A DNA stretch of 41,688 bases from the NCBI GenBank assembly GCA_002690325.1, contig NZED01000035.1, positions 1-41,688 of the forward strand, read 5' to 3'. The notes under the pieces are model-generated. The model was not told the origin of the DNA, did no database searches, and saw nothing but the letters and a program-made list of their open reading frames with translations. Source of the DNA: Synechococcus sp. ARS1019 (GTDB taxonomy: Bacteria; Cyanobacteriota; Cyanobacteriia; PCC-6307; Cyanobiaceae). This document shows, in pieces, positions 3,987 through 38,706 of this stretch. The stretch's first letter is position 1; every line of letters begins with the position of its first letter. The position numbers and the translations under genes are program-made.

Positions 3987-4343
3987 TCACTTTGCTGAAG
4001 CTAGATAGCTACGGCTTTCACCGTGGCTCCAGAAGGCCTCGAGATCGTAATAGCCACGTTCATCGGGCATCAGAACATGCACGATCACCTCGCCGTAATC
4101 GAGGAGCGCCCACCGACCTTCGTTCACGCCTTCTTTGCGAAGAGGCAGACGTTGGACTTCGTCTTCCAATCGATCTTGCACAGAACGAGCGATCGCTCGA
4201 ACCTGAACATCAGACTGCCCACCTGCAATGACAAGCCAATCGGCAAGGCTGGACACTTCATCCACCCTGATCAGCCTGATATCAGTCGCTTTGCGATCGT
4301 CACAGGCATCGGCGGCTAGTGCGGCCAGCTGTTCACTATCCAT
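3987..4343 (-). CDS. rsfS: Ribosome silencing factor RsfS
   Basis: A 118-residue RsfS/Iojap protein. The family binds ribosomal protein L14 (uL14) on the 50S subunit and blocks 30S joining, reducing translation when nutrients are short. Visible family motifs are ATDIRLIRVDEVSSLADWLVIAGG, ARSVQDRLE, and WALLDYGEVIVHVLMPDERGYYDLEAFW near the end. ATG 4343 was chosen because it starts exactly at the family N-terminus; its start overlaps the stop of the upstream DUF3318 gene by 8 bases (TATGGATAG), pointing to translational coupling. It is the second gene of a leftward four-gene operon. Confidence 0.93.
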   Translation of the reverse strand: MDSEQLAALAADACDDRKATDIRLIRVDEVSSLADWLVIAGGQSDVQVRAIARSVQDRLEDEVQRLPLRKEGVNEGRWALLDYGEVIVHVLMPDERGYYDLEAFWSHGESRSYLASAK

Positions 4344-4971
4344 AAACGTTCTCACTGGTAACGGAGCTGCGTGAACCCTCTTGCTGAGCCATCTCAGCGC
4401 GGGCTTTGCTCGCACTCTTGCGCAGTGCCTCCAAGCGATCTTCGTAGAAGCTTCGACGACGCTTTTTACGTGTCTGTTCGACGAGTTCCTTCAGGGCTCC
4501 CCCAAGGCTGCGGTACGCATTCGGAACGCTGTATCCGAAACGGCAAGCCAAATCAATGGCCCGCTCGTCGGCTGAGATTGCGTCCTGAAGTCGTTTCTCG
4601 GAGTTGTTTTTGAGGTAGAGGCGGTAGCCCGCAAAGCCCGACAAACCCAAGGCCATCATCAGCAGCAGTCCGTCCTGGACCCACAGTTCTCCAATCGCAC
4701 CACCCAGACCGATCGCCAAAGCTGCCATTTCCCAACCATCCCGAGGGATGGTGTCGTTCTGAATGCGCCCAACTTCGTGCCAGAACAACAGATTGCGGTG
4801 ATCCAGGGCTAGTCCGTCCCAGCGTTCGAGATCGATCTGAATTTCAACCTCATCCCTGCCGATCTCCTCGAGGGTGATCAACGGTGGCTCGACCGCCGCA
4901 GCGGATTCCACAAAGACCCAGCTCTGCATTTCAGGTGGCATCAGCCCCTTCAGGCGCTGGAGCTCACTCAT
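4336..4971 (-). CDS. DUF3318 membrane protein
   Basis: A cyanobacterial DUF3318-type protein. With the start at ATG 4971 (MSELQRLKGLMPPEM) it has 211 residues; this start was preferred because family members begin with this LxRLxxLMPP segment and because it leaves about 110 bases for the divergent carB promoter. A longer form from ATG 5076 (246 residues) is also open and cannot be excluded. The protein has an acidic N-terminal domain with FWHEVGRIQND, one or two hydrophobic segments around MAALAIGLGGAIG and LLLMMALGLSGFAGY, and a basic helical C-terminus ending in a Lys/Arg-rich coil. Function unknown. First gene of the operon with rsfS. Confidence 0.78.
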   Translation of the reverse strand: MSELQRLKGLMPPEMQSWVFVESAAAVEPPLITLEEIGRDEVEIQIDLERWDGLALDHRNLLFWHEVGRIQNDTIPRDGWEMAALAIGLGGAIGELWVQDGLLLMMALGLSGFAGYRLYLKNNSEKRLQDAISADERAIDLACRFGYSVPNAYRSLGGALKELVEQTRKKRRRSFYEDRLEALRKSASKARAEMAQQEGSRSSVTSENVYG

Positions 4972-5084
4972 CACATCCGACGACACATACCCCAACGGTA
5001 GCGAGCCTCTTGCTGTGATTCGTGCATCGTGAGCGGAAACTGTCGCGTGAGAGGCTGAGGCTGTTTGGCTATTCACCTCAGCTC

Positions 5085-8000
5085 ATGCCTAGGCGGACCG
5101 ATCTGCGCCGCATTTTGCTGTTGGGCTCCGGGCCGATCGTGATCGGTCAGGCCTGTGAATTTGATTACTCGGGAACCCAGGCCTGCAAAGCACTTCGAGC
5201 CGAAGGTTTTGAGGTTGTGTTGGTGAATTCCAACCCGGCGTCGATCATGACCGACCCGGAAATGGCTGATCGCACATACATCGAACCTCTCACCCCTGAA
5301 GTGGTGACACGGGTGATCGAAACCGAGCGCCCGGATGCCCTCTTGCCGACCATGGGTGGTCAGACCGCTCTGAACTTGGCCGTCACCCTGGCTGAGAACG
5401 GCACGCTTGAGCGTTTTGGTGTTGAGTTGATCGGGGCTGATCTTCAGGCCATTCAGAAGGCAGAAGACCGGCTTCTGTTTAAGCAAGCTATGGAACGCAT
5501 TGGCGTTCAGGTGTGCCCATCTGGCATTGCCTCGTCGATGGAGGAGGCGGAGGCGGTGGGTGCCGCCATTGGCAGTTTTCCTCGCATTATTCGACCGGCC
5601 TTCACGTTGGGGGGCAGCGGGGGAGGAATCGCTTACAACCCTGAGGAATATGCAGCCATCTGCAAGAGCGGATTAGAAGCCAGTCCTGTTTCCCAGATCC
5701 TGATCGAGCAGTCACTGCTGGGTTGGAAGGAATTCGAACTGGAGGTGATGCGTGACCGCGCAGACAACGTTGTCATCGTCTGCAGTATCGAGAATCTTGA
5801 CCCGATGGGGGTGCACACCGGTGATTCGATCACGGTGGCTCCTGCACAGACACTGACCGATCGGGAATACCAGCGCCTGCGTGATCAATCGATCGCGATT
5901 ATTCGTGAAATCGGAGTGGCGACCGGTGGCAGCAATATTCAGTTCGCGATCAATCCAGCGAACGGTGATGTCGTTGTTATTGAGATGAACCCTCGGGTGA
6001 GTCGTTCGTCTGCTCTGGCGAGTAAGGCCACCGGCTTTCCGATCGCAAAGATCGCTGCGCGCCTGGCCATCGGTTACACGCTGGACGAAATCCTGAACGA
6101 CATCACGGGGCAGACCCCTGCATGTTTCGAGCCCACAATCGATTACGTGGTCACGAAAATTCCGCGTTTTGCCTTTGAAAAATTTCGAGGAAGTCCCGCC
6201 GTCCTGACCACGTCGATGAAGTCCGTGGGAGAGGCGATGGCCATTGGACGTTGCTTCGAGGAGTCGTTTCAGAAAGCGATGCGATCGCTGGAAACAGGTC
6301 TCTCTGGATGGGGTGGTGATCGGATTGAACCGAATCTGTCCGATTCAGAGATTGATCGACTGCTCCGAACGCCATCACCGGAGCGGATCTTGACGGTTCG
6401 TACAGCGATGCTGCGTGGCCGCAGCAATGCGGAGATTCATCGGATGAGCAGCATTGATCCTTGGTTCCTCGCAAAGTTGCGTGGAATCATCAATCTCGAG
6501 CAGAGCTTGTTGAACGGCAAGCAGCTGGCGGATCTCAACTCGGACCAGTTACTCGAGCTCAAGCAACTTGGCTTTTCAGACCGTCAAATCGCCTGGGCTA
6601 CTGGATCGGATGAGCTGCAGGTTCGTCGTCACCGGCATGACCACGGCGTTCGAGCGGTGTTCAAGACCGTCGATACCTGTGCAGCTGAATTTGCTTCAAC
6701 CACGCCGTATCACTATTCAACCTATGAGCGGCCGCTCCAAACCCTGGCTGCCGACGGGACGTTGATTGATCGGCCTGTCGCCAATGAAGTCAGTGCTCCC
6801 TCAAAGGTCAAGCGAAAGATGATGATTTTGGGTGGGGGGCCCAATCGAATTGGTCAAGGCATCGAATTCGATTACTGCTGTTGTCACGCGTCCTTCGCAG
6901 CACAGGACCAAGGCATCACCACGGTGATGGTGAATAGCAACCCAGAAACGGTGTCCACTGATTACGACACCAGTGACAGTCTCTACTTCGAGCCGTTGAC
7001 CCTTGAGGATGTCCTCAATGTGATCGAAGTGGAACAACCCGATGGCGTGGTGGTTCAGTTCGGGGGGCAGACGCCGTTAAAACTCGCCATTCCTCTTCTG
7101 AACTGGTTGAACGGTGATGAAGGCAAGGCTTCAGGAACCTCCATCTGGGGAACATCTCCGGAATCGATCGATCGTGCTGAAGATCGCGAGCAGTTCGAGG
7201 CAATTCTTCGGGATTTGAACATTCGCCAACCGAGAAATGGTCTCGCCAGAAGTGAGGAGGAAGCTCGCAACGTGGCGACCAAGGTTGGTTATCCCGTGGT
7301 GGTGCGTCCCTCGTATGTGCTGGGTGGTCGTGCAATGGAAGTCGTCTTTGATCAAGACGAGCTCAACCGCTACATGCGAGAAGCGGTGCAGGTGGAACCT
7401 GATCATCCTGTTTTGATCGATCAGTACCTCGAAAATGCAGTTGAGGTCGATGTTGATGCGCTCTGCGATCACACCGGAGATGTGGTGATCGGCGGTTTGA
7501 TGGAGCACATCGAACCCGCGGGAATCCACTCGGGGGATTCCGCTTGCTGTTTGCCCGCGGTTTCGCTGGGAGAAACCGCCTTGGAAACCATTCGTGCTTG
7601 GAGTCGGGATCTTGCCTTGGCATTGCAAGTCCGTGGACTGATCAATCTGCAGTTCGCCGTTCAGCGCGCCGTGGATGGTGAGGAAATCGTTTACATCATT
7701 GAGGCCAACCCCAGAGCATCTCGCACAGTTCCCTTTGTTGCTAAAGCCACTGGCCAACCGCTGGCTCGTCTGGCCACGCGTTTGATGAGCGGAGAAACGC
7801 TTCGGCAGATTGGTTTGCAAGAGGAGCCTGTCCCACCGTTGCAAGCGATTAAGGAAGCGGTTTTGCCATTCCGACGCTTCCCAGGCTCCGACACAGTGTT
7901 GGGCCCTGAGATGCGCTCCACGGGAGAGGTCATGGGGTCCGCCACCAGTTTTGGCATGGCTTATGCCAAGGCCGAGCTCGGCGCTGGCGAAGCCTTGCCA

Positions 8001-8423
8001 ATAACAGGCACGGTTTTTCTGTCGACGCACGATCGCGATAAGGACTCTCTTGTTCCCGTGGCAGCTCGCTTGATTGAACTCGGATTTGATTTGATCGCGA
8101 CCTCCGGTACTGCCCATGCATTGGAGCGGGGAGGATTAACCGTTCGCTCGGTTCTCAAGGTCCATGAAGGGCGACCCAATATTGAAGATTTGATCCGCTC
8201 CAACCAAGTGCAGTTGGTGATCAATACTCCGATCGGGCGTCAGGCTGCCCACGACGACAAATATTTGCGTCGGGCTGCCCTGGATTACGCCGTTCCCACC
8301 GTCACAACGCTGGCGGGAGCCCGTGCCGCCGTTGAGGCTATTTCCGCGCTCCAGGATCAGCCCACTCTTGGCATCCACGCCTTGCAAGATGTTCATTCCG
8401 GTTTGATCGGTTCGCGTCGGTAG
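5085..8423 (+). CDS. carB: Carbamoyl-phosphate synthase large subunit
   Basis: A 1112-residue enzyme, the usual length of CarB. It makes carbamoyl phosphate from bicarbonate, ammonia (delivered by CarA) and two ATP, feeding arginine and pyrimidine synthesis. The internal duplication is clear: [20 protein letters not shown] near residue 14 and [15 protein letters not shown] near residue 580 open the two synthetase halves. ATP-grasp motifs follow in each, for example [16 protein letters not shown] and [14 protein letters not shown], as do [20 protein letters not shown] and [18 protein letters not shown]. The last 140 residues are the methylglyoxal-synthase-like allosteric domain ([12 protein letters not shown]). 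ATG 5085 gives the family N-terminus [17 protein letters not shown]. carA is not in the window, which is common in cyanobacteria. Confidence 0.98.
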
Positions 8424-8448
8424 GGTTGAAACCCACGATGAATCCGTT

Positions 8449-9114
8449 GTGACAACGTCTGTCCCTCTGAAGCCTGGAACCGATCTCCGACCCGTGTTTC
8501 AGCGTGCTTACGAGAATCGCTACACCTGGGACCCAGGCTTCGGTGGCTACAGCGGAACCTGTGTTTGGAGTCAGGGCGACCAGCGGGTTGAAGGTCGCTT
8601 CAGTATTGGCAAGGACTTGAAAGCCTCCGTCGAGGGAATCGAAGACGAAACCGTGCTCAAGGCTGTTCATTCACAGCTCTGGGAAGTGGCGATTCACCGG
8701 GTTCGTCGCGCCTTTGAGCAAACCCACGCGGAGAACACGTTTACTGCGGGTGAGACCGATGCGGTTGGTACAGAGGTGATCGTTGGCGGCAAAGGAGAGG
8801 GCGATCGCTATCGCATCAAAGATGATGTGGTGACGATGGTTCATCGCCATATCCATGGAACTGTCGTGACGATTTTCACCACGGCGATCACAGATACAGG
8901 AAGTGGCTCCCTCAGCCACACCTACACCAGCCAATACGCAGATCCAGCTACCGGTGAAGCACGCGGTGGTCGCAGCAGTTTCAAGGACACGTTCGTTCCT
9001 CTTTCGGAAAGCGGTCCTTGGGTTCTTCAGGAACGTGTGATTGAGACTGAAGCCCACGGTGAACAGCCCGCCGGTTCTCAGACCTTCCGTTTCGAGAATC
9101 TCGAAGCACTCTGA
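8449..9114 (+). CDS. DUF3386 family protein
   Basis: A 221-residue soluble protein with a GTG start 25 bases after carB. It resembles cyanobacterial DUF3386 proteins: an opening FQRAYENRYTWDPGFGGYSG, a central GDRYRIKDDVVTMVHRHIHGTVVTIFT, and a closing region with Arg/Gly-rich SQYADPATGEARGG. There is no signal peptide or membrane segment. The pattern of alternating strands suggests a beta-barrel or lipocalin-like fold, but that is inference. Function unknown. Its stop codon is followed within 12 bases by the hairpin that covers the start of the next gene. Confidence 0.8.
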   Translation: MTTSVPLKPGTDLRPVFQRAYENRYTWDPGFGGYSGTCVWSQGDQRVEGRFSIGKDLKASVEGIEDETVLKAVHSQLWEVAIHRVRRAFEQTHAENTFTAGETDAVGTEVIVGGKGEGDRYRIKDDVVTMVHRHIHGTVVTIFTTAITDTGSGSLSHTYTSQYADPATGEARGGRSSFKDTFVPLSESGPWVLQERVIETEAHGEQPAGSQTFRFENLEAL

Positions 9115-9126
9115 TTGCATTGCCGG

Positions 9127-9173
9127 CCATCGCCAGCTGTGACACCATCCACGGATTCACACGCTGGCGATGG
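9127..9173 (+). promoter_or_regulatory. Start-codon-sequestering hairpin before the symporter gene
   Basis: CCATCGCCAGC at 9127-9137 is the exact reverse complement of GCTGGCGATGG at 9163-9173. A bulged C at 9162 separates this 11-bp stem from a further 5-bp stem (TGTGA/TCACA), leaving a 14-base loop. The ATG of the symporter (9170-9172) lies inside the 3' arm, so the mRNA fold would hide the start codon. No T-tract follows, so it does not look like a terminator. Confidence 0.65.
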
Positions 9174-10522
9174 ATTCGTTAGACACATCAATCCAGGCGA
9201 TCAATAACCCGATTAATGGGTTGGTCTGGGGATGGCCAACTGTTCTGTTGATCGCCCTGACGGGGATCCTGCTGATGGTGGGCCTTGGTTTCATGCCCTT
9301 GCGCCGACTCGGCTACGGCTTCGCGATGCTGGTTCGCCCCAGTGAAGCTGACAGCGAAGGCGAGATCACACCATTTCAGGCCTTGATGACCTCGCTTTCC
9401 GCCACGGTGGGAACCGGGAACATTGCTGGTGTCGCCGGGGCGATTGCCCTGGGCGGACCGGGAGCCGTCTTCTGGATGTGGGTGATCGCGGTGTTCGGCA
9501 CCGCCACTAAATACGCCGAGGCCGTCCTCGCTGTTCACTTCCGCGATACCGACGAGCACGGTCACTATGTCGGTGGCCCGATGTACTACATCCGCAATGG
9601 CCTCGGTGCTGGCTGGAGCTGGATGGCGGGTCTCTTTGCCTTGTTCGGCATGCTTGCTGGATTCGGGATCGGTAACGGCGTTCAAGCGTTCGAGGTTTCT
9701 TCCGCTCTGGAGGCTGCTGGAATTCCCCGTTTGTTGACCGGAATTGTTCTGGGCGTGCTGGTCTTCGCCGTTGTGATTGGTGGAATCCGCCGCATTGCAC
9801 AAGCGGCGTCAACCTTGGTGCCATTGATGTCAGTGCTTTATATCGGCGCCTGTTTGTTCGTCCTGATTGCCAATGCTGCTGCCGTTCCAGAGGCCTTCGG
9901 CACCATTTTTGGCAATGCATTCAGCGGCGAGGCTGCTGCGGGGGGGGCGTTCGGTCAGGTGGTGTTGATGGGATTTAAACGCGGCATTTTCTCGAACGAA
10001 GCAGGCCTAGGCAGTGCTCCGATCGCTCACGCGGCCGCAAAGACAGATGATCCGGTTCGCCAAGGCACCGTCGCGATGCTGGGCACGTTCATCGACACCC
10101 TGGTGATCTGCACGATGACCGCCCTGGTGATCATCACCACTCAGGCCCATCTGTTGATGAACAACGCAGGTGAACGGCTCAGTGGTTCCACCCTGTCTAT
10201 CGCTGCTTTCGATAGCGGTTTGCCAGGTAGTGGCTTCGTCGTGACAGCGGGTTTGATCATTTTTGCCTTCACCACCATCCTTGGCTGGAGCTTCTATGGC
10301 GAGCGTTGCACGATCTATTTGTTCGGGGACGGTGCCGTGCTGCCGTTCCGTTTGCTGTGGGTTGCGATGGTTGTGTTTGCGTCTGTGGCTGGCACCAGTG
10401 GAGCCATTTGGGGCGTCGCTGACACTCTGAATGGTCTGATGGCGCTGCCCAACCTGATCGCTTTGCTGCTCTTGAGTGGAACGGTGTTCAAACTCACTCG
10501 CTCTTACAACTTCTCCGATTGA
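9170..10522 (+). CDS. Sodium:alanine/glycine symporter (AGCS family)
   Basis: A 450-residue inner-membrane carrier of the alanine or glycine:cation symporter family, which imports small neutral amino acids with Na+. The family signature FQALMTSLSATVGTGNIAGVAGAI is seen at about residues 68-91, and further conserved pieces are KYAEAVLAVHFR, YVGGPMYYIRNG, FKRGIFSNEAGLGSAPIAHAAAKT and ILGWSFYGERC. About ten hydrophobic segments are recognisable. ATG 9170 gives the family N-terminus (IQAINNPINGLVWGWP); the next ATG is inside the first membrane helix. No Shine-Dalgarno sequence is evident and the start lies in a stable hairpin. A strong bidirectional terminator follows. Confidence 0.95.
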   Translation: MDSLDTSIQAINNPINGLVWGWPTVLLIALTGILLMVGLGFMPLRRLGYGFAMLVRPSEADSEGEITPFQALMTSLSATVGTGNIAGVAGAIALGGPGAVFWMWVIAVFGTATKYAEAVLAVHFRDTDEHGHYVGGPMYYIRNGLGAGWSWMAGLFALFGMLAGFGIGNGVQAFEVSSALEAAGIPRLLTGIVLGVLVFAVVIGGIRRIAQAASTLVPLMSVLYIGACLFVLIANAAAVPEAFGTIFGNAFSGEAAAGGAFGQVVLMGFKRGIFSNEAGLGSAPIAHAAAKTDDPVRQGTVAMLGTFIDTLVICTMTALVIITTQAHLLMNNAGERLSGSTLSIAAFDSGLPGSGFVVTAGLIIFAFTTILGWSFYGERCTIYLFGDGAVLPFRLLWVAMVVFASVAGTSGAIWGVADTLNGLMALPNLIALLLLSGTVFKLTRSYNFSD

Positions 10523-10536
10523 GCGGCTGTTGCTTC

Positions 10537-10576
10537 AATCAAAAAAAGGGGGCCATGGCCCCCCTTTTTTTTGATT
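10537..10576. terminator. Bidirectional rho-independent terminator
   Basis: AATCAAAAAAAGGGGGCC pairs with GGCCCCC followed by a run of eight T and GATT, an almost perfect 40-base palindrome centred on CCATGG. It ends the symporter gene rightward and the DUF6447 gene leftward. Confidence 0.9.
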
Positions 10577-10588
10577 CAACTGATCGAC

Positions 10589-10828
10589 TCAGCCCTGGCC
10601 GTCTGCCATGGGTGTGACGTTCTTCAGTTTTTCATTCAGCTGCATCGCCAAGCTTTGACGCCCGACGGCCAGCACCTTGAGGGTGTCTTCATGCATCCGC
10701 AGCTGAGCATCGGCGACTTGCATGCCACGCACCAACTCCTTGAGTTCGTCGGGAAGGGTGTTGAGGTCGTAACGCTTTCCCTCGAAGGTGAGCACTGGAT
10801 TGGGATTGTTTGCTGCAGAGTCAGTCAT
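10589..10828 (-). CDS. DUF6447 family small protein
   Basis: A 79-residue soluble protein. The core LTFEGKRYDLNTLPDELKELVRGMQVADAQLRMHEDTLKVLAVGRQSLAMQL resembles DUF6447, small helical proteins found in marine cyanobacteria and their phages. The N-terminus is polar (SAANNPNP) and the rest reads as a beta hairpin followed by a long amphipathic helix, compatible with an adaptor or binding protein. Function unknown. ATG 10828 is the only sensible start. It lies between two transcription units and is ended by the palindromic terminator shared with the symporter. Confidence 0.72.
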   Translation of the reverse strand: MTDSAANNPNPVLTFEGKRYDLNTLPDELKELVRGMQVADAQLRMHEDTLKVLAVGRQSLAMQLNEKLKNVTPMADGQG

Positions 10829-38293: not shown

Positions 38294-38539
38294 TCAATAA
38301 ACGCCGTAGAGGACTCCGCGGTACCTGAGTTCGCGACCTTTGGTGGCGACTTGATCGTTGCTGGACGGTGTGTAAGCAATGCCTCTGTAACGCAGTTGAG
38401 GCTTGCGACGCTGGCCGGTTGGTGTGTGGGTTGCGTCGGTGTAGTCCGCGTTGCGGAAGGCCTTGGCCATCTGCAGACGTGCAACTTCCAGAGCCCGAGA
38501 TTTAGTAGCGCGCTCTTTGATTCGTTGAAGGGTGTTCAT
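38294..38539 (-). CDS. DUF4278 small protein with two LRYRG motifs
   Basis: An 81-residue soluble protein. After a basic helical start (NTLQRIKERATKSRALEVARLQMAKAF) it carries two copies of an aromatic-basic motif, LRYRGIAY at 49-56 and LRYRGVLY at 71-78. The LxYRGxxY pattern defines cyanobacterial DUF4278 proteins, whose function is not known. The duplicated motif suggests a binding surface, possibly for nucleic acid or a partner protein, but that is inference. It converges on the S66 gene at the shared terminator. Confidence 0.72.
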   Translation of the reverse strand: MNTLQRIKERATKSRALEVARLQMAKAFRNADYTDATHTPTGQRRKPQLRYRGIAYTPSSNDQVATKGRELRYRGVLYGVY

Positions 38540-38706
38540 GGAACAACTTCTCTCAGCGCCCGCGCCCCCGTTGCCTGACGTGGGTCTGACTGCAGCTCCT
38601 CGGGGAGCTCAACGTCCTTTGATACTAATCAATTGCTGTAGCAACGGCTACAAAACTGCCGCTGGTTCACCAATCTTCACCGCAGAGTCGCTGCGAGCAT
38701 GGACAA

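Follow-up and report, generated by a model that had tools for sequence, protein, structure and literature searches.

A hairpin overlapping a predicted promoter may hide a symporter start codon in read-through messages of Synechococcus

The start codon of an AgcS-type amino acid:cation symporter gene in Synechococcus sp. ARS1019 lies in the 3' arm of a long RNA hairpin, the 5' arm of which falls within a conserved promoter-like block, and in relatives the pairing over this start co-varies on both sides. The start codon is probably hidden only in messages running in from the neighboring gene. Our preferred explanation, which we hold to be moderately likely, is that a hairpin built into the promoter, as in phage T4 gene e, blocks translation of read-through RNA while RNA from the gene's own promoter stays open. 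The window referred to below is the whole 41,688-nucleotide stretch of DNA analyzed.

In the proposed mechanism, the symporter would have a promoter of its own, located between the DUF3386 gene and the symporter, and transcripts from it would begin near A9155, and their 15-nt leader, lacking the 5' arm, would leave them translatable. RNA reading through from carB and DUF3386 would carry both arms, allowing the long hairpin to bury the start codon, and would yield DUF3386 but little symporter. In Synechococcus-like relatives the same scheme would work through other arms that co-vary, the 5' arm usually being the -10 region; in the window's lineage the promoter spacer would take its place. If this is true, one DNA stretch acts both as promoter and as lock on the unwanted read-through messages of a bacterial chromosomal gene, units of transcription and translation become separable without a terminator, RNA-seq coverage is misleading for such genes, and a cheap insulator design is on offer.

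Features of the locus are given in Table 1. The symporter gene was found in 30 of the 34 genomes of the genus, and of 29 genus loci, 28 have the C-terminus of carB upstream in the same orientation; no mention of DUF3386 turned up in the literature searched. The symporter begins at the ATG at 9170-9172, the sole ATG, GTG, or TTG start, since the frame opens at 9143 and none occurs further upstream in frame, as an earlier note on this DNA had seen. That note also had the hairpin directly following the DUF3386 stop codon (9112-9114), a fair description: 12 nt separate the stop from the 11-bp stem, and the symporter start lies 55 nt past the stop. With no terminator-like site on the plus strand between the two genes (six such sites were found in the scan), read-through RNA from DUF3386 into the symporter is plausible.

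Table 1. Positions in the window of the symporter locus and its hairpin and promoter elements
Feature	Position	Strand	Basis or comment
carB	5022-8423		5' of DUF3386 gene
DUF3386 gene	8449..9114	+	PF11866, 263.9 bits; putative source of read-through RNA
-35-like element TTGCCG	9120..9125	+	TTGC at 17-bp spacing; strict block in 63/95 regions
5' arm of 11-bp stem	9127..9137	+	Within promoter spacer
5' arm of 5-bp stem, TGTGA	9138..9142	+	Doubles as extended -10
Extended -10: TGTGA 9138-9142 and CACCAT 9143-9148	9138..9148	+	Conserved block
Predicted transcript start (+1), A9155	9155	+	From position of -10; 15 nt 5' of ATG
Predicted 15-nt leader of the symporter's own mRNA	9155..9169	+	Comparative leader lengths
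3' arm of 5-bp stem, TCACA	9157..9161	+	In predicted leader
3' arm of 11-bp stem	9163..9173	+	Holds start codon 9170-9172
AgcS-type amino acid:cation symporter, 450 aa	9170..10522	+	PF01235, 455.3 bits; TIGR00835, 460.3 bits
Terminator-like hairpin with T-run	10548..10563	+	3' of symporter

The segments CCATCGCCAGC (9127-9137) and GCTGGCGATGG (9163-9173) are perfect complements forming 11 pairs, inside which TGTGA (9138-9142) forms a 5-bp stem with TCACA (9157-9161), leaving C9162 bulged. This pair of stems with the ATG in the 3' arm, as described in the earlier note, is confirmed and lies beyond chance: with a minimum free energy (MFE) of -31.8 kcal/mol (z = -5.7), a value that 0 of 200 shuffles reached, the segment 9121-9180 has the third lowest fold among 4164 60-mers sampled from both strands of the window. 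Perfect inverted repeats of at least 11 bp (loops of 3-60) number six in the window, this one included; 30 first-order Markov sequences contain 0.47 on average. In the read-through context, opening the symporter start region is predicted to take 20.2 kcal/mol, the highest cost for any of the 31 ORF starts called mechanically in the window (next-highest 12.2, median 6.1 kcal/mol). The second least accessible start, at 12.2 kcal/mol, belongs to an ORF on the minus strand (4336-5076). It had been remarked that the symporter has no Shine-Dalgarno sequence; this is correct yet ordinary, as an SD-like 4-mer is present at 5 of the 31 window ORF starts. The stem is not an intrinsic terminator by our scan, being followed by ATGGATTCG in place of a T-run and absent from the six terminator-like sites.

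A block of fixed spacing, TTGC-N16-TGA(C/G)AnnAT, precedes the symporter in Synechococcus and Prochlorococcus. For this comparison, 31 loci (L031-L060 and L080) were used from a first list of 80, with 49 from other bacteria left out, and 121 upstream sequences were reduced to 95 unique regions after removal of 2 without an N-terminal match and 24 duplicates. The form TTG-N17-TGnnAnnAT occurs in all 29 genus upstream regions and in 63 of the 95 unique regions overall. When TGnSAnnAT sites were collected with no -35 requirement (82 sites in 77 of the 95 regions) and spacings of 8-30 were scanned, TTGC stood exactly 17 bp away in 60 of its 70 occurrences. Among the 63 strict cases, T occupies -17 in 59 and A or G occupies -16 in 59 (TG, found in 63/63, was required by the search pattern); A stands at the predicted +1 in 43 and at the base after it in 45. 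Extended -10 promoters carry TRTGn ahead of the -10 and a -35 element at 16-18 bp. The block has this sigma70-type layout, with TRTGn before the -10 and TTGC at 17 bp, the -10 hexamer itself being poor. The comparison of genomes thus suggests a promoter at the 5' arm, with its predicted +1 on the 3' side of that arm; a consensus scan of 8300-10700 calls no sigma70 promoter.

Of 40 Synechococcus-like loci with an assigned start, 39 have a leader so defined of 10-20 nt, and L162 has one of 40 nt; in Prochlorococcus-type regions the block mostly lies 14-24 nt ahead of a plausible start codon. Symporters at Prochlorococcus-type loci (e.g., L122 and L118) often begin with GTG, apparently 6-24 nt downstream of the predicted +1, and seem to be extended at the N-terminus when compared with the protein of the window. 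In its own genome, a strict match to TTGCN16TGASACNATC occurs once, at the symporter, so a shared regulon is not suggested. With +1 at 9155, the arm at 9127-9142 would be absent from the symporter's own mRNA and present only in DUF3386 read-through RNA. The earlier note made symporter translation as such depend on opening the stem; because the conserved promoter block overlaps the 5' arm and the gene's own mRNA is predicted to lack it, only read-through RNA should have this dependence.

The block could alternatively be a structured leader and no promoter, with RNA starting upstream and the hairpin working as a translational switch under the control of a ligand or protein. The start codon is hidden by the hairpin in the longer RNA, symporters are frequent riboswitch targets, and the empty consensus scan agrees with such a leader. 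We nevertheless regard it as very unlikely: the exact 17-bp spacing is kept in Prochlorococcus, where the hairpin is missing, which suits a promoter better than an RNA fold, and an Rfam search of 8900-9400 returned no match at E <= 10. The latter result rules out a known riboswitch and leaves the riboswitch-like role put forward earlier without a matching family.

The two kinds of message differ in how accessible their start regions are predicted to be. For 37 of the 38 loci, read-through RNA is costlier to open than RNA from the gene's own promoter, with means of 13.0 versus 5.5 kcal/mol, and in the window the cost falls to a predicted 7.3 kcal/mol in the gene's own RNA, near the median of the window's ORF starts. 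Native read-through RNAs are also costlier to open than those with halves swapped between lineages (13.7 versus 10.1 kcal/mol; 0/20000). L003 shows no extra occlusion (-0.8 kcal/mol), and L010 (1.3), L025 (2.0), and L024 (2.7) show little. Because the start region is costlier to open in read-through RNA, which matches the logic of T4 gene e, we propose silencing of read-through messages; the block on translation is something we infer.

Ribosomes terminating on DUF3386 might, alternatively, open the hairpin, so that the symporter is made in step from a shared RNA. Such translational coupling, raised in the earlier note, is unlikely in our judgment. In the window the hairpin base follows the DUF3386 stop by 5-12 nt, in the L045-type clade it does so within 9 nt, and six other lineages (L041, L043, L143, L147, L149, and L151) have the classical layout in which start and stop overlap as TGATG. 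This overlap suggests a coupled pair there and a functional link between DUF3386 and the symporter. In folds made with only 22 nt of the 5' side, however, 29 of 38 loci have their first hairpin base 18-33 nt after the stop, beyond the reach (footprint) of a terminating ribosome, so that distance speaks against coupling in these and is compatible with it in the other nine, the window included. Coupling also leaves the conserved promoter block unexplained, and the six TGATG lineages lack the strict block.

Silencing of read-through RNA finds its comparative evidence in the relatives, although not through the window's own arms: by eye, the exact stem of the window was seen in none of the relatives read. 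Many Synechococcus-like relatives instead pair the -10 region through -1 with the leader and start codon (L111, with CCATCCCTCGG/CCGAGGGATGG; also L007, L020, L045, and L116), and in 30 of 33 distinct relatives' segments the MFE structure pairs a start-codon base with the 5' side. We compared the pairing energy of each lineage's own two halves with that of halves exchanged between lineages, a swap test that needs no drawn structure. The anchor was present in 41 of the 95 regions, 38 of which entered the test (L054, L147, and L162 were left out) and formed 17 clusters. For -13..-1 against +1..start+11, native halves pair at -11.9 and swapped halves at -7.9 kcal/mol (z = -6.5; 0/20000); with the full -43..-1, z is -6.3, and without the window it is -6.8. 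Under looser clustering into 11, 7, and 4 clusters, the observed value is reached by 0, 6, and 831 of 20000 permutations, the last count being that of the four most distant clusters alone.

Part of this signal is composition. In the 17-cluster test, reversed halves give z of -2.0, -1.5, and -1.0, the coding region -1.1, and the DUF3386 end 0.0; with all clusters, reversed controls go down to -2.7, and neighboring gene starts used as controls give -2.1 to -1.6 (DUF3386) and -2.9 to -0.3 (a small ORF). The hairpin could on this account be due to chance, given that the promoter's CCATC and the start codon's GATGG are complementary constraints, with the long stem of the window a coincidence. The CCAT/ATGG complementarity is partly forced, composition brings a control to z = -2.9, and the window's arms are not common to its relatives; but the effect stays when the -10 and start codon are removed and the inner bases alone are used (z = -5.1; 0/20000), and shuffling only -7..-1 and the leader never reaches the observed mean (0/2000). 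Chance is, in our estimate, highly improbable.

The co-variation extends beyond the first 17 clusters. A set of 37 more distant loci, mostly with 45-61% symporter identity and one with 74%, came down to 21 usable ones in 15 clusters once 1 without a match and 15 unusable loci were removed. These clusters give z = -4.1 (0/20000; reversed control -0.7) under a start-codon rule written after their sequences had been viewed. Six of them were near copies or known beforehand; the nine on which the idea did not draw give 17/20000 (control z = 0.1). All 31 clusters together give z = -8.5 (0/20000; reversed control -2.7). Native beats swapped in 414 of 465 cluster pairs, with 14 equal, and the own 3' half is among the best three for 16 of 31 lineages; it ranks badly in L166 (28), L179 (31), L188 (24), and L180 (21 of 31). 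Several distant lineages, with symporter identities of about 55-61%, have a small hairpin, a hairpin that stops short of the start codon, or none. The Prochlorococcus-type regions (34 listed, 33 entered, one start set by hand; 29 clusters) keep the promoter and genes, and the hairpin signal is absent from them (z = 0.2; reversed control -2.5).

Within a subset of 8 lineages sharing an ungapped 10-pair helix, 92.5% of cells are paired versus 82.7% after shuffling (0/500), and covariation is 0.300 versus 0.132 (0/500), with compensatory changes at three pairs; by count, pairs changed on both sides are not unusual (3 vs 2.0; 111/500). In L164 the -10 is altered to CACGAT and the opposite arm reads GGATCG. 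Compensatory changes of this kind make the idea of read-through silencing directly testable. A wider form of it is doubtful at present: a promoter lying within a string of genes might, as a general means of insulation, also supply the 5' arm of a hairpin covering the start codon that follows, and each such promoter would reset translation even though transcription may continue across it, the arrangement evolving by compensatory change within the -10 element, as in L164. To our knowledge, these cyanobacteria lack Rho.

Arm sequences vary between lineages while pairing is kept, unlike an operator, and no T-run comes after the stem. We therefore also attach very little probability to the inverted repeat acting at the promoter as DNA, whether as operator or as cruciform, or stabilizing the 3' end of DUF3386 RNA. 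The repeat does overlap the promoter, and the spacers of several lineages are palindromic, that of L024 holding a 24-nt perfect palindrome, TGTCACAGCTGATCAGCTGTGACA, which overlaps the extended -10. An operator is possible in L024 and these relatives. Ahead of the symporter start, L168, L191, L193, and L195 carry another inverted repeat (AAAAGCTGGGCA/TGCCC..AGCTTTT or a variant of it), whose loop holds CATACT or CATAAT; this may be the same logic built on a second promoter type.

The window itself pairs poorly through the -10 arm (rank 16/17 and 22/31) and, with the spacer included, ranks 1/17 both ways at -19.1 kcal/mol. Across lineages the spacer alone shows no effect against the 3' half (z = +0.6), and a conserved GCCGG...CCGGC spacer hairpin, judged by this pairing with the 3' half, was set aside. 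Thus the covariation that the earlier note proposed to look for in relatives is present for a hairpin at the start region, formed by the -10 region and not by the exact stem described. Since the co-variation concerns an arm that the window does not use, the case for the window's own stem is its strength alone. The window may reach through another arm, the promoter spacer, the outcome seen in its relatives; from one genome, functional replacement and luck are both possible.

In phage T4, longer transcripts of gene e (lysozyme), and also of soc, 49, and I-TevI, form a hairpin hiding the start region; the DNA that encodes the 5' arm contains the promoter of gene e, and late-promoter transcripts lack that arm (PMC3014915). 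Here too, the start codon is predicted to be paired in the longer RNA and open in the short one. The T4 case is an early/late switch of a phage with experiments behind it, whereas ours concerns a bacterial chromosomal transporter known from computation alone, and Synechococcus-like relatives differ from it in using the -10 region itself as the 5' arm. The IS10/Tn10 transposase is protected from outside transcription in a similar way, read-through RNA folding over the translation start and own-promoter RNA not doing so; there, the end repeats of a mobile element are involved, in contrast to a gene between chromosomal neighbors. The TGATG lineages share the DUF3386-symporter pair, with a start that overlaps the stop and no strict block. 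The principle is thus already known from phage and from IS10, and a conserved chromosomal example of it with co-varying arms in free-living bacteria is apparently new: the literature searched (few subscription papers, no supplements, and hence weak evidence of absence) held no chromosomal case with the -10 region as an arm and no mapped start for the symporter.

Amino-acid riboswitches such as Glutamine-II resemble this locus in sequestering a start codon near an amino-acid transporter, and differ in that the symporter hairpin has no Rfam match. The window does contain a Glutamine-II riboswitch elsewhere, on the minus strand at 38559-38617 (RF01704; 43.7 bits, gathering threshold 33). Just 3' of it on the same strand is an 81-aa ORF with YRG repeats (38294-38539), which we take to be DUF4278-like.
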